This document shows, in pieces, positions 1 to 15,659 of a stretch of 41,121 nt of DNA. The notes beneath the pieces were generated by a model. That model did not search any database. It was not told the DNA's origin and saw nothing but the letters and a program-made list of their open reading frames with translations. The translations under genes and the position numbers were made by a program. Source of the DNA: Actinomycetota bacterium (GTDB taxonomy: Bacteria; Actinomycetota; Aquicultoria; Aquicultorales; Aquicultoraceae). Positions within the stretch are counted from its first letter, which is position 1, and every line of letters starts with the position of its first letter. The DNA lies in contig JACUUO010000007.1 of NCBI GenBank assembly GCA_014859275.1, forward strand, positions 1 to 41,121, written 5' to 3'.

Positions 1-1322
1 TTGGTGCTTATGAGTTTGGCAGCAGTAAGGCTCCTGGAGCTGGAACTAACCCAGGCACTGGAACTAACCCGGGCACTGGGAATAACCCGGATGCTGGGAA
101 TAACCCGGATGCTGGGGGAGACTCAGGCATTGGCACGGACCCAGATACTAATCCTGGTGCAATTCCTCCATCCTCATCTCCATCGCCTAATTATAGCCAA
201 GAGCGCTATGAGCCAGATGATTTAGATGTGGTGGGGGTAAGTGATGATTCCATTACAATACGGTGGAATAAGCCGGCAAGCGGCTCACCAGCTTACTATA
301 AGATTTATGCTTCCGATAAATTAGATAACGGTAGTGAAACCTATGTAACGAGCGTACCAGGTTCACAAACTAGTTTTACTCACTCAAGGCTAGCTAAGTA
401 CACGAGAAAATGGTATAAGGCGAAAGCGGTATATCAAGATGGCGAATCAACGTTCTCTGATGTAGCTATGGGGCAGACTGGTACTACCAGGTATCAAGAA
501 AACCATGCTAATGTGAAGGCGGTCGGTAACTGGATTCGGGTTAACGAGGACGATGCGGCTGGCATGTATTTTCTTCAATCTCGTTCATCCGGTGATTATC
601 TGGATATTACCTTCACAGGCACTAATTTTGCCTTAGTGAACTTCGGCGGCCCAGGAGGCGGTATCGCCAAGATATTTATTGATGGGAAAGCGATTACTGA
701 TGGTAACGCCCTTAATGGCGCAGGGGTGGATATGTATGCAGCTAGCTGGCAGCGCCAAAACATTATATATGAGAAGGCTGGTTTAACCGATACACAACAT
801 ACCGTACGAATTCAGGTATCCGGGCAGAAGAATGCAAGCTCAAGTAATTACCAAGTTACTCTTGATGCAATTGACTTTTACACAGATTCTTTATCGATTC
901 CTATGCCGCCGGAGCTTAGCAGTTCTAATCAGGTTAGCGTTGTATATCCGGCCGGTCTTAATATAGTTGCCGCGCCATCTGGAGATAATATACAGGCCGA
1001 TATCATCTGGGATTACAATACTTCTAACAGCAGCTTCAGCGTTGTAGATTCAATTGGCTTAGGAAAAGGCTACTGGGCTTACTACAAGGAGAGCCGCACG
1101 GTTGACATGCAATTTGAAAATCGTGCAAGCTTTGACGTATCGCTTGTACCTGGCTGGAATGTAATCGGTAACCCCTTCGCAAGAGAGGCTAAATTGCCGG
1201 AAGGTATCAGCGGGTACGCATATAATACAGGGCTCGGCGCGTTTAAAAAAACAACGACCATTCCTGTAGGCTATGGCATCTGGATATATGCCACTTCGGC
1301 AAAGACGATAACTTTAAATTAG
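1..1322 (+). CDS. Secreted modular surface protein, C-terminal part (5' end outside window)
   Basis: The reading frame is open from base 3, so this is the 3' part of a longer gene. The first visible residues, GAYEFGSS, match the end of the beta-helix region of the large protein at 10118-13321 (DIGAYEYG), so the missing N-terminus is probably a parallel beta-helix. Next comes a Gly/Asn/Pro linker built from four 18-bp units (42-113). A fibronectin type III-like domain follows (about 228-480), then a galactose-binding-like beta-sandwich (about 490-880, with YLDITFTG and DAIDFY edges). The last 130 residues form a twin repeat with AGLNIVAAP, GKGYWAYY, PGWNVIGNPF and GYGIWIY. Export is inferred from this architecture. 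The first ATG/GTG-started ORF (228) is not the true start. The gene ends just before a strong terminator. Confidence 0.8.
   Translation, partial: GAYEFGSSKAPGAGTNPGTGTNPGTGNNPDAGNNPDAGGDSGIGTDPDTNPGAIPPSSSPSPNYSQERYEPDDLDVVGVSDDSITIRWNKPASGSPAYYKIYASDKLDNGSETYVTSVPGSQTSFTHSRLAKYTRKWYKAKAVYQDGESTFSDVAMGQTGTTRYQENHANVKAVGNWIRVNEDDAAGMYFLQSRSSGDYLDITFTGTNFALVNFGGPGGGIAKIFIDGKAITDGNALNGAGVDMYAASWQRQNIIYEKAGLTDTQHTVRIQVSGQKNASSSNYQVTLDAIDFYTDSLSIPMPPELSSSNQVSVVYPAGLNIVAAPSGDNIQADIIWDYNTSNSSFSVVDSIGLGKGYWAYYKESRTVDMQFENRASFDVSLVPGWNVIGNPFAREAKLPEGISGYAYNTGLGAFKKTTTIPVGYGIWIYATSAKTITLN
42..113 (+). repeat. 18-bp in-frame tandem repeat, four units
   Basis: Four consecutive 18-bp units at 42-59, 60-77, 78-95 and 96-113 encode GTNPGT, GTNPGT, GNNPDA and GNNPDA. 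Units 1-2 and units 3-4 are near-identical pairs, which indicates recent slippage duplication. The repeat forms the flexible linker after the beta-helix. Confidence 0.85.
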
Positions 1323-2482: not shown

Positions 2483-3793
2483 CTATTTCTTAGGCAGATC
2501 GGGATGCCCTGATATCCGTGCTTCAATGCTTCTTTTCTTATCCCGGGCGTTGCCACCTCTTTTATCAAAGCCTATTTGCTGCCACTCAACGATATCTACC
2601 ATCTGCTTGCCAAACCCGGCGATATGATCAGACCCCGCCTTACTTAATAGGTTTTGTTCGCTCGAAAACCCGGCTATGCTATCCTCGTTGATCCCGTAAG
2701 AGGCCCAGCCATTTCCCTCGCCAGCTTCAAAAATAATATTGCCGGTGGACTGGCAATCCGTGCTCTGCTTGTGGATATATAAGCCAGCATAACGCGGGCG
2801 GTAAATTAAATTATCGATAATTTTTGTGCCTGGGCTTGCCTTAATATTTATGCCGTTGTTATTGCTCTTGTAGATAGTATTACCAACAATGCGAACGCCG
2901 CGGTAATTCTCAAGCATGATTGGCATGTTGTGGATACGGTAGAAGGTGTTGCGAGCAATGAGTACCAAGCCATTGACGTCATCCTCATGTTGAAAGAGCT
3001 GGATGCCATCGATATGTGCCGTGGGGTTCGTTGAGTGGAGCTGGTCATGGATGATATTGTTCTCAATTACCCCGCTGTAATCCCCAAAATAAATGCCATC
3101 CTCATCAAGGTTGCGATAGCTCTCATTACTCTTCAAAACGGTATCGATGCCACGTATCGTGCGAATGCCATCTTTTCCGTTATCATGTGTTATGCAACCG
3201 ATAGCGGTTTTCTTCGATCCACCGGCAAAGTAGATGCCATGACCGCCATTACTATATATAATGCAATTTAAAATCTGGATGCTGCTCTGTTCTTCCTTCA
3301 GCATAGCTTCAGCACCGTTTCCGGTAAATCCAGTAACAGTAAAGCCTCGCACTGTAGTATAGCTTCTATTGCTTAAGTCTATGCCTTTTTCCAGCTTTCC
3401 CTGCCCATCAAGTATAACCTTATGCCCAGGGTAGGCTGCGAACTCTAATGGCGCATCTGGCTTGCCTGAATGCTGAGGTTTCAGCGCCTCATGATAGGTG
3501 CCTTGTTTAACGATTACAATAGTGCCTTTACTGATAGGTTCGGTTTTTGATGCCCGGGTTAGGGTCTTCCAGGGATTCTCTTGTATGCCCGGGTTCTCGT
3601 CGTTACCTCGTTTTCCATCGACAAAGAAATAGGTTTTATTGCTATCAAGCCTTAACTTAGGTTTGGTTCTCTCCGGTTGCCTGGTCTTATCCGGTTCCTC
3701 CTGCAAAAATAGGTAGCCCACACCACGTATTGCGCTTATCGTAATGGCAAGTACAGCGATTACCGTGAGGACTATTTTGACCCATTTTTGCAT
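2483..3793 (-). CDS. Membrane-anchored right-handed parallel beta-helix protein
   Basis: The 436-residue protein starts with a lysine-flanked hydrophobic segment (about residues 5-29), a signal anchor or uncleaved signal peptide. A basic Pro/Lys linker follows, then the usual entry to this beta-helix class: FFVDGKRGNDENPG, NPWKTL and GTYHE (compare YYVSPSGNDLNPGT in the 1067-residue protein). The rest is Asn/Gly-rich repeats such as NIIYSNGGHGIYF and NTIYKSNNNGINI, typical of Beta_helix/NosD-like folds that bind or cleave acidic polysaccharides. No catalytic residues can be assigned. The ATG is preceded by GGAGGT at 5-nt spacing. It lacks the C-terminal GWN module of its relatives. Confidence 0.82.
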   Translation of the reverse strand: MQKWVKIVLTVIAVLAITISAIRGVGYLFLQEEPDKTRQPERTKPKLRLDSNKTYFFVDGKRGNDENPGIQENPWKTLTRASKTEPISKGTIVIVKQGTYHEALKPQHSGKPDAPLEFAAYPGHKVILDGQGKLEKGIDLSNRSYTTVRGFTVTGFTGNGAEAMLKEEQSSIQILNCIIYSNGGHGIYFAGGSKKTAIGCITHDNGKDGIRTIRGIDTVLKSNESYRNLDEDGIYFGDYSGVIENNIIHDQLHSTNPTAHIDGIQLFQHEDDVNGLVLIARNTFYRIHNMPIMLENYRGVRIVGNTIYKSNNNGINIKASPGTKIIDNLIYRPRYAGLYIHKQSTDCQSTGNIIFEAGEGNGWASYGINEDSIAGFSSEQNLLSKAGSDHIAGFGKQMVDIVEWQQIGFDKRGGNARDKKRSIEARISGHPDLPKK

Positions 3794-7142: not shown

Positions 7143-8591
7143 ATGCGATACGGAAAAGTTCTTATAGTAAATCCTGAGTCTCACGGAGAGTGGAAGGGCA
7201 TAAGACCTCATATCGGCCTCGGCTACTTGACCCAGGCGCTACAAGATAGGGGCATTGAGTACGATTACCTAGACATGAACCTGGGCCATGGCTATAGGCA
7301 ACTTCAAGAAAAGATCGATAAGTTTAAACCGGATTTAGTCGGCATAAGCCTTCTCTCCATGGAATACAAGAAATTTTATCGCCTGATCGCCCAAATTAAA
7401 TCAGGCAACCCCAGTATCCCGATAGTTGCTGGCGGCCCCCATGTCACCATTCTTAAAGAAAGAGTTCTTGAGGATTGCCCAGCGCTGGATTATGGAGTTG
7501 TTTTCGAGGGAGAGGACGCTCTCTTTGAGCTTTGCCGCGGAGACGAATTAGGCGATATTAAGAACCTGATTTACCGGGCCGATGGGACGATTATACAAAA
7601 CGAGCAGCGCGAGTTTAAGATGAATCTGGACGAGCTATCGTTTCCCCGTTATGAGAAGTTCGAGCTAGAAAAATACGTTCCTGAGATTGATATATATTCA
7701 AGCAGGGGGTGCCCTCATGAGTGTATTTTTTGCCCTAACCGCTTGATAAGCCCCGTTTATAGGGCCAGAAGCCCGCAGCATGTTGTCGACGAGATGGAAT
7801 ACTGGTACGAGAGGGGTCACCGGCAGTTTAATTTTGACGATGATAATTTCAATTACGTGAAAAGCAGGGTTTACGCAATATGCGACGAGATCGAGCGACG
7901 CGGTCTAAAGAATCTCTTCTTGAGATGCTCAAATGGGATACGTGCCGACCGAGTAGATAAAGATATGCTCATCCGCATGAAAGAAGTCGGTTTTAAGTAT
8001 ATAGCCTTCGGCGCCGATGCCGGCAACAACCGCATGCTGGAGATAGTCAAGAAAGGGGAGACGATTGAGGACATCGAGCGGGCTGTCAAGGACGCCTGCG
8101 AGCTTGGTTATGACACGAAGCTTCTCTTCGTGGTCGGGACGCCCCAGGAGACCTGGGAAGACGTTGAAGACAAGGTAAGGCTTAGCAGGAAATATCCGGT
8201 TAAGGACGTCCATTTCTACAACATAATACCTTACCCTGGGACCGAGCTTTTTGACTGGATAAAAGAGAATGGATATTTCTTACGGGGACCCGCTGATTAC
8301 CTGAATGATGTATCTGTTCTTGAGAACACGCCGGTCTTTGAGACGCCCGAGTTGCCCGCTGAGACCAGAATTAAGCTGTTTAAATATTTGGGAAAAGTTC
8401 AAAAAGAAGTTCACCGCAATGCGATCGCCGATATATTTAGCGATTATGGTATGGCCGGTAAAATTGCGGGCAGGGTTTTATCAAATAAATATTTCAAGCA
8501 AATGTTCTATCAAAACTTTGCGGTGAGAAGAATTGCTGAAAGAATTAGATACAAAAAGGCTGTCGAGGCGAGCGGGAAAGATGCAGCTTAA
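7143..8591 (+). CDS. B12-binding-domain radical SAM protein
   Basis: The 482-residue protein has an N-terminal cobalamin-binding-like Rossmann domain (about 1-140, IGLGYLTQALQDRGIEYDYL, GISLLSMEY, VAGGPHVTI, FEGED). The radical SAM core follows with the 4Fe-4S cysteines C190, C194 and C197 (RGCPHECIFC). Downstream are FNFDDDNFNY, GADAGNNRMLEIVKKGET and VVGTPQETWEDV, typical of the BchE/HpnP-like group. The substrate is unknown; such enzymes methylate or rearrange unactivated carbons in lipids, sugars and cofactors. The ATG follows AGGGGG. It stands between two decayed genes inside the polysaccharide locus, and a role in modifying the polymer or its lipid carrier is inference. Confidence 0.9.
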   Translation: MRYGKVLIVNPESHGEWKGIRPHIGLGYLTQALQDRGIEYDYLDMNLGHGYRQLQEKIDKFKPDLVGISLLSMEYKKFYRLIAQIKSGNPSIPIVAGGPHVTILKERVLEDCPALDYGVVFEGEDALFELCRGDELGDIKNLIYRADGTIIQNEQREFKMNLDELSFPRYEKFELEKYVPEIDIYSSRGCPHECIFCPNRLISPVYRARSPQHVVDEMEYWYERGHRQFNFDDDNFNYVKSRVYAICDEIERRGLKNLFLRCSNGIRADRVDKDMLIRMKEVGFKYIAFGADAGNNRMLEIVKKGETIEDIERAVKDACELGYDTKLLFVVGTPQETWEDVEDKVRLSRKYPVKDVHFYNIIPYPGTELFDWIKENGYFLRGPADYLNDVSVLENTPVFETPELPAETRIKLFKYLGKVQKEVHRNAIADIFSDYGMAGKIAGRVLSNKYFKQMFYQNFAVRRIAERIRYKKAVEASGKDAA

Positions 8592-8608
8592 GCAGTATTT
8601 ATGAGACA

Positions 8609-8889
8609 GTAACAATGCAAAGAAGCGGAAGTTCTTCGGCCTGTATCACGATCAAGAATTACCCGAACGAACGACCCATTATAAACGGAAGCAATTCATG
8701 CCCAACGGCATTTAATTTTAACAACCATAGCTAAATTCATGTGAAGGCTTTGAACTTACCAATCATGGCAACAACAGCGTTTCTGACTGAATACATAAAA
8801 TCCTAGCAAAGGCATACGATGCTTCCAGTAATACCGCTTTTGCTGAATTTACGGTTAACGTTAAGAGCCTTGAGGCCCTTTGTAGATAA
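8609..8889 (+). pseudogene. Deletion-fused remnant of a beta-helix/Ig surface protein
   Basis: Frame 8609-8734 reads QRSGSSSACITIKNYPNER, matching QNSGTSTARLVVKNYPNEK of the 1067-residue protein at 10118-13321. After a stop and frame change, 8735-8779 reads NSCEGFELTNHGNNS (compare RFEGFEITNYVGSSS). From 8794 a third frame reads HKILAKAYDASSNTAFAEF, matching HKILAKAYDTSGNTAPAEI of the first Ig-like domain, and ends at TAA 8889. About 540 residues are missing between the two parts. This is a decayed paralog on the opposite strand with a large internal deletion. The rest of the 8592-8999 gap holds no other gene; the last 110 bases carry the next gene's leader. Confidence 0.8.
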
Positions 8890-10117: not shown

Positions 10118-13100
10118 TTATCTGTGAAGTATCAGCACCTGTTGATTTGATACGTAAATCCAGGCGCCGTTTCCCTTCGGAATAATGTTTGTTGTTTCGT
10201 AGCTGCGAGTCTCAGGGTTATATATATAGGCTGTATATCCTTGCGGTAAAGCAACATCGCGATCAAAGGGATTGCTGACCATATTCCAGCCAGATTCAAG
10301 ATTTATGTCAAACTTGTCAATGACATTAAATGTCAGTGAAACTGTTGTTGGCTGGCCGAAATGAGCCCAGTAACCTTCGCCAGTGGTTGGGGAGTCTACT
10401 TTTTTGTAACCGCCGGTTTTCGGATCATAGCTGCCGAAAAGATTGGTGCTTATGTCATTTCCGGTTGGCACTGCGACCAGATTCCATCCAGCGGGATAGG
10501 TGACCGATATACTTACTACATTAGAGCCTTTTAGCTCTATGCTGTCACTTGTCTCATAAACGTTAACTCCGTCTGAGAACTGGCCTTTGACCGTTTTTAC
10601 GCCTAGCCCGCCTGTAAGTGTCAGGGTTTTGCTGGTTGCATAATCTTCCCACGCAGTCCAGGTTGATCCACCATCGACTGAGAATCTCATTTTGGCAGCC
10701 CCGGTTATTGAATTTGTCACGGTAACATTAGTTTCGGTTGTGCTTTCAGCTCCCGAGTTTATAGTGATAGTGCCGCTAGGCGCAATGTTATCAACCTTCA
10801 CTACAACGAAAGCAGTATCTTCAATATTGCCGCTAGTATCTGTTCCACGAGCTTTTATCTTATACACAACACTATCACTTGGAGCTATTTTCCAGCTATA
10901 GCTCCAGGTTAAAGTCTTAGTGCCTGCACCTGATATGACAGTGGTCGGAAGCCAGGTTTCCGAAGTTGACCAACCACTGCCGGTCCAGTAAACACCATCT
11001 TCTCTTTGTACGGCAACCTCGACTTTGCTGACCTCAACGTCATCTGTCGTTGTTCCTTTGATTAGTTTCTCACTACCGCTAAGAGTTTCAGTTCCAGTTG
11101 GATCGGTAATTGTTGTAACCGGAGGAGTCGTATCTTGCGGAGGAGTCGGTATATCAGCCGCATTCTTTACATTAATCGTAATCTCGGCCGGAGCGGTGTT
11201 GCCGGAAGTATCGTATGCCTTCGCAAGAATTTTGTGTGCCCCATCTGGGATGGTTGTGCTATCCCAGGTGTACTCATATGGGCTAGCGGATACGGTTTTC
11301 TTAAGAGCACCGTCTATATAGAACTCGACTTTTTGGATGCCCTTATCGTCGGTTGCTGAAGCTTTAATATATACATTTCCACTAACCGTTGCATTGTTGG
11401 CGGGCTCAGTAATAGCCACCTTTGGCGGAGTTATATCCTGTGGCGCTTCTTGTCCGTAAACCTCAAACTCATACACGCCAAACCCATAGGGGGTGTCGCT
11501 TTTTGCAGTTACGTCAAGCCTTATATATCTACCGGTAGTGTTTTCTGGTATAGCAATTTCTTCCGTGCTTCCCTTGCCTGTCGTGGTGGAATACACCTGC
11601 TTCCAATTAACAGCGTCACTTGAAACGCTTACCTTATAGGCACTTGGGTAGGCGTGGGAGTCCGATATCATGCGGACTTTATTCAGATCGTAGGTTTTGC
11701 CCAGATCGACGTAGAACCACTGGGGCAGACCTTGGGATGCCGAGACGGCCCAGTAGGTTGTTTTATCACCGTCAACCGCTTTGGTAGGTTCACGTGTTTC
11801 CCTTGAGAAGGCCGAGGAATACGCTGGCTTATTTAAAGCTAGATTCGGCTGAGTTGGTGCAGGAGCCGTGTTACTAGCACCGTACTCATAAGCACCGATG
11901 TCAATTATCTTGTTTACTATTCTGGCTTTACCATCCATATCTGTAGCAGGATACGATAGTTTATTGTCAGTGTTTTGATACCCCTTATCTATTGCAGGGC
12001 TTCCTGCTTTCAAGCGATAATCCCTGACAGACGGGTTAACAAATATAGCATTCAAGTCACCGCCTTTGATATTGTTGCCTTCTTGAAAATCCGGATTACC
12101 GCCATCACCATTTATTACTGCTGCACTGGTGCTTGTACCCAAAACAATATTGTTAAAGATACGCACTGATTGAGCCAATCTCTTATCTCCTTCAGGCCAT
12201 CTGGAAACTACAAGACCACCTTTGCCCTCCGTATCAACAACCGTGTTATTGAATACATGGGTATAATCAGTACCCTGTAAACGTAAGGCAACGCCGTATT
12301 GATAGGTAGTGCCACCATAGAATATGTTGTTATATAGCCTAAAGCCACCAGCTCCAGCTAGTATAACCTGGTGGTGACCTGCTCTGCCAAAAAGATTATT
12401 GCGGATAATGATGTTAAGATTTCCCTGCCATGTGCCGCTTGACATTTGAATGTTGTCAACATGGTCGCCATCTATTGGCGTATTGTTGTAGATGTGGTTA
12501 TTCTCAACAATAAGGTTGGACATTTTCCCTGCAAAGTAAATACCATCCCTATTTAACCCAAAGATTTCATTCCCCTTAATTAGGGTATTTGACGTATTAG
12601 TTAGTAGAATACCCCTACCAGGGGTATCAGTAATGCGATTATTTAGTATTTTATGTCCTGTGCCAGAGCCTCCGCTCCATGCACCTGAAATACCAGTTCC
12701 GGAGCTGCCCCTTTGGGTGCGGTGAATATAATTGCCGACTATTTCGATGTCTGTAGCGGAAGATCCTCCCAGCCACAAGGCGCTGCTGCTGCCCACGTAA
12801 TTGGTAATTTCAAACCCTTCAAACCTGATATGGCTTTTACTGTTAAAATCGATAGCCCTGCTTAACATGCCGTTGCCGTTCAGGACAGGTTTTTCGTTTG
12901 GATAATTTTTCACCACTAATCTAGCGGTAGAAGTACCACTGTTCTGGAAAGTGATTGATTCAACATACGTGCCAGCTCTTACTAAAACAGTGTCTCCTGC
13001 CTGGGCGACATTTACACCCTTTTGAATGGTTCTAAAGGGCGAGGATAGAGTTCCTGGGTTGAGATCGTTTCCAGATGGGGATACGTAGTAGGTATTTCCT

Positions 13101-13321
13101 GCTGCTAACGCCAGATGATTAGTCGGATTAAAGCTGATTATAGGCATTGTTAGCTGTGTGATTAGAGCCATCGCAATGGCTAATGCAAGCACCTTAGCGT
13201 TTATTTTTCTTAGTGTATGTTTTGACTTTTTTCTTAATGCATGTTCTGGCTTATAGCTAAAAATTCTCATCACCTTCCCAAATAAGTGTCCTGGTTTTTC
13301 TAGTAGTCTCACTTCTGGCAT
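10118..13321 (-). CDS. Large secreted beta-helix / discoidin / Ig-like surface protein
   Basis: The 1067-residue protein has a long basic N-region and hydrophobic core (about 43-62) with a possible signal-peptidase site near ALALAAG (about 70-75). The parallel beta-helix (about 76-480) opens with YYVSPSGNDLNPGTL and ends with DIGAYEYG. An F5/8 type C (discoidin) domain (about 490-630) and three Ig-like domains (about 632-725, 735-850, 850-935) follow. It ends with a twin GWN module (about 942-1067: AGWNLVAVP, GEGYWAHF, SGWNMVSNPF, GNGAWIYV). I chose ATG 13321 because AGGAG lies 7 nt upstream; the in-frame GTG at 13357 has no such site. It probably binds or processes the extracellular polysaccharide made by the surrounding genes; no catalytic residues are evident. 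Confidence 0.85.
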   Translation of the reverse strand: MPEVRLLEKPGHLFGKVMRIFSYKPEHALRKKSKHTLRKINAKVLALAIAMALITQLTMPIISFNPTNHLALAAGNTYYVSPSGNDLNPGTLSSPFRTIQKGVNVAQAGDTVLVRAGTYVESITFQNSGTSTARLVVKNYPNEKPVLNGNGMLSRAIDFNSKSHIRFEGFEITNYVGSSSALWLGGSSATDIEIVGNYIHRTQRGSSGTGISGAWSGGSGTGHKILNNRITDTPGRGILLTNTSNTLIKGNEIFGLNRDGIYFAGKMSNLIVENNHIYNNTPIDGDHVDNIQMSSGTWQGNLNIIIRNNLFGRAGHHQVILAGAGGFRLYNNIFYGGTTYQYGVALRLQGTDYTHVFNNTVVDTEGKGGLVVSRWPEGDKRLAQSVRIFNNIVLGTSTSAAVINGDGGNPDFQEGNNIKGGDLNAIFVNPSVRDYRLKAGSPAIDKGYQNTDNKLSYPATDMDGKARIVNKIIDIGAYEYGASNTAPAPTQPNLALNKPAYSSAFSRETREPTKAVDGDKTTYWAVSASQGLPQWFYVDLGKTYDLNKVRMISDSHAYPSAYKVSVSSDAVNWKQVYSTTTGKGSTEEIAIPENTTGRYIRLDVTAKSDTPYGFGVYEFEVYGQEAPQDITPPKVAITEPANNATVSGNVYIKASATDDKGIQKVEFYIDGALKKTVSASPYEYTWDSTTIPDGAHKILAKAYDTSGNTAPAEITINVKNAADIPTPPQDTTPPVTTITDPTGTETLSGSEKLIKGTTTDDVEVSKVEVAVQREDGVYWTGSGWSTSETWLPTTVISGAGTKTLTWSYSWKIAPSDSVVYKIKARGTDTSGNIEDTAFVVVKVDNIAPSGTITINSGAESTTETNVTVTNSITGAAKMRFSVDGGSTWTAWEDYATSKTLTLTGGLGVKTVKGQFSDGVNVYETSDSIELKGSNVVSISVTYPAGWNLVAVPTGNDISTNLFGSYDPKTGGYKKVDSPTTGEGYWAHFGQPTTVSLTFNVIDKFDINLESGWNMVSNPFDRDVALPQGYTAYIYNPETRSYETTNIIPKGNGAWIYVSNQQVLILHR

Positions 13322-13351
13322 AGCAATGCTCCTATCCTTGCTTGAAACTAC

Positions 13352-13368
13352 CTGCACTAATAGTGCAG
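13352..13368. promoter_or_regulatory. Perfect 17-bp palindrome upstream of the beta-helix gene
   Basis: CTGCACTA and TAGTGCAG are separated by one A, 31 bases upstream of the chosen start on the minus strand. Size, symmetry and position fit a repressor operator; the regulator is not identified. Confidence 0.5.
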
Positions 13369-14294: not shown

Positions 14295-15659
14295 TTGGAA
14301 GAAAAATTTGAACTACTTCAGTTTATAAAGATAATTAAAGAGCGAAGGATAATAATTATTCTTGGCACGCTCATTTGCCTTTTTCTTGCAAAAGTGGCTA
14401 CCGATTATACATCGCCCGTTTATGAATCATCTGTGCAAATGATGGTATCTCAAGGTCAGGTTACCTCACAGACTCAGCCATTGATCGAATCATATCAGGC
14501 GACACTTTTAAGTGAGCGATTAACGGCGACTTTTAGCCAGATGTTAGCTAGCAGGACTCTTGCTGAAAGAGTGATTGAAAAGCTTGATCTGGCTTTAGCC
14601 CCGGAGAACTTACAGAAGAGAATAAGGGCTGAAGCGGTAAAAGAAACTCAGCTTATACGGTTTACTATTACCGACGCCAACCCAAATTTCACCAAGAAGC
14701 TAGCCGACACCTATGCTTCCGAGTTTGTCAAAATGACGGACGAAGTTATACCCTCATCAGCATTAATAAATGTGCGGGTGGTTGATCAAGCAGCAGTACC
14801 GCGTTTGCCGGTGTGGCCGAAGCCACTGTCGAATTTGATCCAGGCCTTTCTGATAGGCCTTGTGCTAAGCACTGGTTTTGCATTTATTTTAAGTATGCTT
14901 GATGTGACTATAAAAGAAACAGAAGATGTAGAGAAGCTTGTAAGCTTACCGTCATTAGGGCAAATACCAATTTCGAAGAACCCGCTTCTCTTAGGCAATC
15001 ACAACCCTATTGTCGCGGAGGCTTATAGAAGCCTTAGGACCAACCTTCAGTATATTAACTTCGACCAATCAATAAAAAGCCTTATAGTTTCGAGCCCGAG
15101 TTTAAATGAAGGCAAAACTACCATTTCTTTTAATCTGGCCACTGTATTTGCACAAGCGGGTTATAACGTGCTTCTTGTTGATGGTGATCTAAGAAGTCCT
15201 AGATTAGGTAGGTTATTTAACGAGTCAGATGAACGTGGACTCTCAAACGTTTTAGTTAGTGCGGTAGAAGTTGAGTCGGCTATCCAGAAGGCAAGTGAAG
15301 ATAGATTGTATTATATGAAAAGCGGACCAACTCCTCCAAATCCTGCTGATCTGTTAGGTTCTGAGCGGATGACTGAGCTTTTAGGTAAGTTAGAGGAGGA
15401 TTTTAATTTAGTAATTATTGATTGCCCACCTATTCTTGCGGTAGCTGATACTCCTATTGTTGCAGTTAAGGCTGATGCTGTCCTTCTAGTGTCGAGTTTC
15501 GGAAAAACGAAAAAGGGCGAGTTGGTGTCCGCCAAGGATGCACTTAATAAAGTTGGTGCTCGCATTATAGGGTTTGTAGTAAATGGCGTGGAAGCGACTA
15601 GTAGAAGAAAATTCGATTACTATTACCGAAAATCTCACGTCAAGCAAAAGGCTGCATAA
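14295..15659 (+). CDS. Wzz-type co-polymerase fused to BY-kinase (chain-length regulator)
   Basis: The 454-residue protein combines both halves of a polysaccharide co-polymerase/tyrosine autokinase. TM1 is at about 19-36 and an extracytoplasmic Wzz domain follows with VPRLPVWPKPLSN before TM2 (about 181-201). The cytoplasmic ATPase has a Walker A variant (SSPSLNEGKTT, K274), Walker A' (LLVDGDLR, 293-300) and Walker B (LVIIDCPP, 372-379). A tyrosine cluster Y442-Y444 near the C-terminus is the expected autophosphorylation tail. It controls chain length and export in Wzy-dependent systems. The TTG start follows GAGGT. It begins the main plus-strand export/polymer operon. Confidence 0.92.
   Translation: MEEKFELLQFIKIIKERRIIIILGTLICLFLAKVATDYTSPVYESSVQMMVSQGQVTSQTQPLIESYQATLLSERLTATFSQMLASRTLAERVIEKLDLALAPENLQKRIRAEAVKETQLIRFTITDANPNFTKKLADTYASEFVKMTDEVIPSSALINVRVVDQAAVPRLPVWPKPLSNLIQAFLIGLVLSTGFAFILSMLDVTIKETEDVEKLVSLPSLGQIPISKNPLLLGNHNPIVAEAYRSLRTNLQYINFDQSIKSLIVSSPSLNEGKTTISFNLATVFAQAGYNVLLVDGDLRSPRLGRLFNESDERGLSNVLVSAVEVESAIQKASEDRLYYMKSGPTPPNPADLLGSERMTELLGKLEEDFNLVIIDCPPILAVADTPIVAVKADAVLLVSSFGKTKKGELVSAKDALNKVGARIIGFVVNGVEATSRRKFDYYYRKSHVKQKAA

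Follow-up and report, generated by a model that had tools for sequence, protein, structure and literature searches.

The window analyzed here, a whole stretch of DNA of 41,121 bases that forms the entire contig C191 of a 2.83 Mb genome, encodes two copies of a protein module that we call twin GWN. This module is an unnamed accessory domain of secreted proteins, for which the searched copies of Pfam, NCBIfam, and PHROGs hold no entry, and it is a movable extracytoplasmic domain rather than an address label at the end of proteins. The best explanation, to which we assign a probability of about one-half, is that twin GWN is a mobile domain of about 130 residues carried, in this Actinomycetota family, by secreted beta-helix proteins encoded beside exopolysaccharide (EPS) clusters, with the beta-helix working on the EPS and the module binding a glycan or surface partner.

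Two homologous modules with an internal duplication

Module 1 (930-1319, plus strand) corresponds to residues 310-439 of the open frame 3-1319 (plus strand) and forms the C-terminal end of the secreted left-edge protein. Module 2 (10121-10513, minus strand) comprises the C-terminal 131 residues of the second carrier protein. The two align without gaps, with 49 of 129 positions identical (38%) and 60% similar (BLASTP, E 2e-36), and a search of the source genome found exactly two copies, the partner being retrieved at E 1e-30. The homology proposed in a preliminary description of this DNA is thus confirmed. Its coordinates were exact for module 1, but the boundary given for module 2 (10515) lies two bases off the frame.

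Each module had also been described as an internal duplication, which was borne out both in sequence comparisons and in the predicted structure. The halves of module 1 lie at about 930-1121 and 1125-1319 (plus strand). When the alignment of 32 members was cut at its middle and the halves were compared profile against profile, they matched with 97.9% probability (E 3.1e-13, 59 columns), and the six compact members alone gave 97.5% (E 8e-12). The line common to the halves is G-W-N-[MLV]-[VI]-x-x-P ... Y-[DN] ... Y ... G-x-G-Y-W-x-Y, and the two tandem halves have the early G-[WL]-N and the late G-x-G-x-W, or a close variant, by which we define a twin GWN. As the duplication is common to distant relatives that match over the full length, it is real and old.

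Predicted fold and library searches

AlphaFold2 predicted an all-beta structure for the translation of 930-1319 with 32 relatives (mean pLDDT 94.4, pTM 0.86). According to DSSP, the predicted strands comprise residues 2-6, 9-14, 25-30, 35-38, 46-52, and 56-60 in the first half and 68-72, 75-80, 95-99, 104-108, 115-121, and 125-129 in the second half. The same six elements therefore occur twice, those of the second half being shifted by 66-70 residues but in register with the first, and the halves are predicted to form two equal folds, as the preliminary description had asked. The model of a distant member from KSB1 (L022, pLDDT 87.7) has a strand series that is compatible with the module 1 model. 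The most conserved residues, GWN, NPF, and GYW, may serve the fold core instead of a binding site.

A Foldseek search of the PDB with both models gave no match with an E-value below 0.1, and a search for solved homologues by sequence gave nothing beyond chance matches at E 0.8. When the 32 members were scanned against Pfam (2025 copy), NCBIfam (June 2026), and PHROGs, no model covered the module consistently, and the isolated weak matches each occurred in one member. A match to TIGR02597 in L013 was rejected as the identity of the module, as it covers residues 244-312 and lies away from the module. A named domain with a non-anchoring role, which would have spoken against the preliminary description, was hence not found over the module in these three libraries; other domain libraries may already contain it. 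There was likewise no match to a carbohydrate-binding module (CBM) family in Pfam and no CBM-like fold among the Foldseek PDB results. The one good fold match came from BFVD (A0A8D9C8P8, TM 0.74, E 2e-4); this protein, which has 587 residues and comes from an uncultured marine phage, is predicted to contain the twin GWN fold. The name of this protein, "putative hemin binding protein", was not adopted for the function of twin GWN. A tblastn search of phage records with a distant module found nothing, and searched viral contigs and plasmids held no close relatives of the module. Literature searches with the motif strings returned no paper, and accounts in other wording may exist.

Spread across bacteria

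About ten lineages at phylum level carry the twin module. When GTDB species genomes were scanned from seed patterns, 31 loci were obtained, in records labelled Actinomycetota, Chloroflexi, 'Proteobacteria', WS1, Armatimonadota/Fimbriimonadales, Calditrichota, KSB1, Neomarinimicrobiota, Eisenbacteria, Lindowbacteria, Bacteroidota, and Balneolaceae; the relatives of the 'Proteobacteria'-labelled MAG include the Chloroflexi one. After profile extension, the loci match one profile, mostly over the full length. A search of 21 of the source genomes found 148 matches, each genome having between 1 and 28, and the open frames concerned reach 9,114 residues. About 131 of these matches span at least 110 of the 166 model positions, a proportion that does not establish that the module is always twin, as the seed patterns and the twin-built profile favor full twins. 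In the window's own family, 3 of 11 genomes carry the module, and in a sample of the phylum, 5 of 396 genomes had a match, one of which was rejected: the L043 match in G253 (E 6e-4) is ABC-transporter/FtsX-like by sequence and was judged to be due to chance.

The module thus occurs in many copies per genome in little-cultured phyla, yet we found neither a Pfam, NCBIfam, or PHROGs entry nor a solved structure. As the domain is unnamed in these libraries, many giant surface proteins are annotated with a blank at this place, and naming it would improve annotation. A tentative broader reading is that twin GWN is an unrecognised fold, namely a pseudo-twofold 12-strand domain without a solved relative that serves as a general surface-protein module in about ten bacterial lineages; some members, such as the standalone secreted pairs and the carriers at EPS clusters, might then be matrix lectins.

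Carrier proteins in the window and their leader

The left-edge protein is a fragment of 439 residues (3-1319, plus strand), the 5' end of which is cut by the contig start. It consists of a GAYEFG tail, a Gly/Asn/Pro linker, an FN3 domain (E 8e-06), a jelly-roll-like region without a Pfam match, and the twin GWN module. The second carrier (1079 residues; 10121-13357, minus strand) was assigned by profile matches and contains a long leader or signal peptide, a right-handed beta-helix (PF13229, E 6e-13), a choice-of-anchor Q region (choice_anch_Q, 40.9 bits vs a cut-off of 25), an F5/8 type C domain, an Ig domain (Big_7), and the twin GWN module. It combines a Beta_helix profile match with a location at the EPS cluster. 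By eye, the GAYEFG with which the left fragment starts resembles the GAYEYG where the choice-of-anchor Q region of the second carrier ends. On the strength of this likeness, which comprises six residues and is a lead, the left fragment could be the tail of a second beta-helix protein and apparently ends a beta-helix. The earlier contrast between the upstream domains of the two proteins missed the beta-helix at the start of the second carrier and the apparent beta-helix end in the left fragment.

The leader of the second carrier is an extended signal peptide (YKPxH ... TQLTxPI; 13094-13270, minus strand) that is conserved in the other GWN proteins of the family. The leader is unusual: its long n-region is basic and includes Y-[KT]-P-x-H, and its hydrophobic core ends with TQL[TS][FM]P. 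It also occurs at the N-termini of L005 and L008. Apart from these twin GWN proteins, the 11 family genomes encode no protein with this leader; a match on a cytochrome-like protein (E 0.007) was disregarded. The leader is possibly a dedicated export signal of the family's twin GWN proteins. In sequence searches, the beta-helix of the G001 protein and that of the window protein fail to retrieve each other, while leader and module are common to both, and it looks as if domains were shuffled around a constant leader-GWN pair.

The window also contains a decayed relic of a gene similar to that of the second carrier (8549-8865, plus strand). Its beta-helix piece is 35% identical to residues 111-184 of that protein, and the Big_7 piece that follows is 67% identical to residues 702-731; stops and a deletion separate the two pieces. 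A third beta-helix protein is encoded at 2483-3793 on the minus strand (PF13229, E 2e-20); it starts with a membrane anchor or signal and lacks the twin GWN module.

The exopolysaccharide neighbourhood

A Wzx/Wzy-type EPS cluster lies to the right of the second carrier and extends to about 27082. Its first gene (14295-15659, plus strand) encodes a Wzz/Wzc-type polysaccharide co-polymerase and kinase, and it further contains genes for a flippase, several glycosyltransferases, a Wzy-like ligase, a GDP-mannose dehydratase, an epimerase, and ManC. Three family genomes have a twin GWN gene, and in each of them this gene is 0.4-4 kb away from a Wzc-like kinase gene, of which each of the three genomes has one to three homologues. 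A rough product gave 3e-7 for the chance of such proximity, a value to be read as an order of magnitude because the sample comprises three genomes, with the distances set post hoc.

Genes of the ccm type adjoin the EPS cluster in the window (27247 onward). In G001, a decayed twin GWN fragment (L050 2894-3106, minus strand; contig C25) lies between ccmC and a DegT-type aminotransferase gene. As the ccm genes beside the cluster of the window are homologous to those beside this fragment, the arrangement suggests that an EPS cluster was lost or relocated in G001.

Position of the module and alternative roles

Both window proteins terminate within the module itself (...WIYATSAKTITLN and ...WIYVSNQQVLILHR), and inspection of their C-termini revealed no LPXTG-like motif, hydrophobic stretch, or basic tail. 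Two other genomes of this family, G001 (L005) and G003 (L004), have the module near the N-terminus (residues 93-225 and 106-235), directly behind the signal peptide, and the order is leader, module, linker, and a beta-helix-type domain beginning with AADYGAKGDG; a contig end truncates the G003 frame. In Chloroflexota, tandem frames of 174 and 263 residues (L010) contain the compact form alone, and other sites are N-terminal positions in proteins of about 290 residues and the extreme C-terminus of a 1,575-residue protein. In the distant phyla, 242-288 residues lie beyond the module in 36 of 51 distinct carriers, close paralogs being counted in. Eight carriers, including both window proteins, have 0-12 residues after the module, and some Armatimonadota proteins also end with it. 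The proposal that the module moves independently is supported, as it can be N-terminal, C-terminal, or alone, with differing partners; on the question raised earlier of whether it is always C-terminal, the answer is no, within the family itself and in Chloroflexota.

That the carriers are secreted, as had been proposed, is supported by signal peptides, which were recognized by eye in 10 of 11 further carriers with a complete 5' end as well as in the compact proteins. Among the matches listed (25 of 55 families), the Pfam partners of 17 carriers are of extracellular type and include FlgD_ig, Por_Secre_tail, LamG, Ig, subtilase, VWA, and beta-helix domains. With such signal peptides and partners, these carriers do not present the module in internal positions of cytoplasmic proteins, the finding that would have contradicted the preliminary description. 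In the distant phyla, many unrelated proteins carry it (subtilases, VWA and LamG proteins, giant proteins), and a role in EPS is not evident there.

In the distant phyla, the stretch beyond the module contains another domain, followed by FlgD_ig in 7 and Por_Secre_tail in 4 of the 17 carriers scanned. In L074-L103 and L011-L038, the last 250-270 residues comprise twin GWN, then a domain of roughly 150 residues that has no evident name, and often a FlgD_ig or type IX secretion system (T9SS) tail. This middle domain of the distant-phylum carriers may be unnamed as well. The sorting tail of L012 (1622-1702) is separate from the module (about 1283-1436), and none of the 32 aligned members matched TIGR04183, PF18962, or PF13860.

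The main rival to the EPS-accessory reading is that the module is a structural part without a ligand of its own, a rigid spacer or cap that keeps the working domains off the surface or stabilizes the chain end. The near-constant distance of the module from the C-terminus in the 36 carriers, with a further domain and, where tested, often a T9SS- or FlgD-type tail behind it, agrees with such a role, as do the functional diversity of the carriers and the structural, core-like appearance of the conserved residues. However, a pure spacer does not explain the tandem proteins of L010 that consist of a signal peptide and one twin module, nor does it fit well with a module that is terminal on either side of the chain, and we consider this alternative possible but doubtful. 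It is less probable still that the module mediates protein-protein docking and brings several carriers, such as the two window proteins, together on a common scaffold. The presence of two carriers in one cluster, the tandem standalone modules of L010, and a pseudo-twofold domain that could bind a symmetric partner would suit this role, but no co-occurring partner or complementary domain was seen, and genomes with a single carrier exist (G003, G396). A C-terminal sorting or surface-retention signal, as initially envisaged, would suit the module at the end of both window proteins, some Armatimonadota proteins, and the long Chloroflexota protein, but it is very improbable, as G001 and G003 have the module at the N-terminus, standalone secreted forms exist, the tail of T9SS-tailed proteins is a different domain downstream, and neither window protein has an LPXTG motif or a C-terminal hydrophobic stretch.

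In the EPS-accessory reading, which we prefer, the beta-helix part would cleave, modify, or bind nascent EPS, and twin GWN, at either end of the chain, would be a non-catalytic part that might hold its carrier in the matrix by binding either this glycan or a partner on the surface. We infer that the module probably binds a glycan, which is consistent with the EPS neighbourhood. Points against this reading are that the module resembles no CBM by sequence or fold in the searches made, that its most conserved residues may belong to the fold core, that the carriers in the distant phyla are so varied, and that the EPS neighbourhood comes from three genomes. With about 130-150 residues, the compact standalone form is small enough for a direct test of structure and ligand.

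Comparison with known systems

The type A T9SS (TIGR04183/Por_Secre_tail) and FlgD_ig sorting domains resemble twin GWN in being found towards the C-terminus of multi-domain secreted proteins, and one polypeptide often has both. However, twin GWN differs from them in sequence, lies about 250 residues before the tail, is found in Actinomycetota and Chloroflexota without such tails, and gives no score with either model. With CBMs, twin GWN shares the small size, the predicted all-beta structure, the conserved aromatic residues, the terminal position on either side, and the presence on secreted, putatively glycan-active proteins. Unlike CBMs, it has no CBM family match and no PDB fold match, and its glycan binding is putative.

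A precedent for the beta-helix part is WceF of Pantoea stewartii, a beta-helix EPS glycosidase encoded in an EPS cluster, for which the abstract describes hydrolysis and lectin-like agglutination of its glycan (PMC7949094). Like the second carrier, WceF is a right-handed beta-helix protein from an EPS synthesis cluster, and it acts on EPS, a precedent from which we infer that the beta-helix part of the carriers may act on EPS as well. WceF differs in being a trimer of beta-helices, and its abstract does not mention an accessory module (PMC7949094). RapD and the other Rap/CHDL proteins of Rhizobium are extracellular EPS-binding accessory proteins that affect polysaccharide processing (PMC9298526). 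They have a cadherin-like calcium-binding domain and are exported by type I secretion (PMC9298526), in which they differ from the twin GWN proteins; what they would have in common with twin GWN is the extracellular, EPS-binding accessory role.
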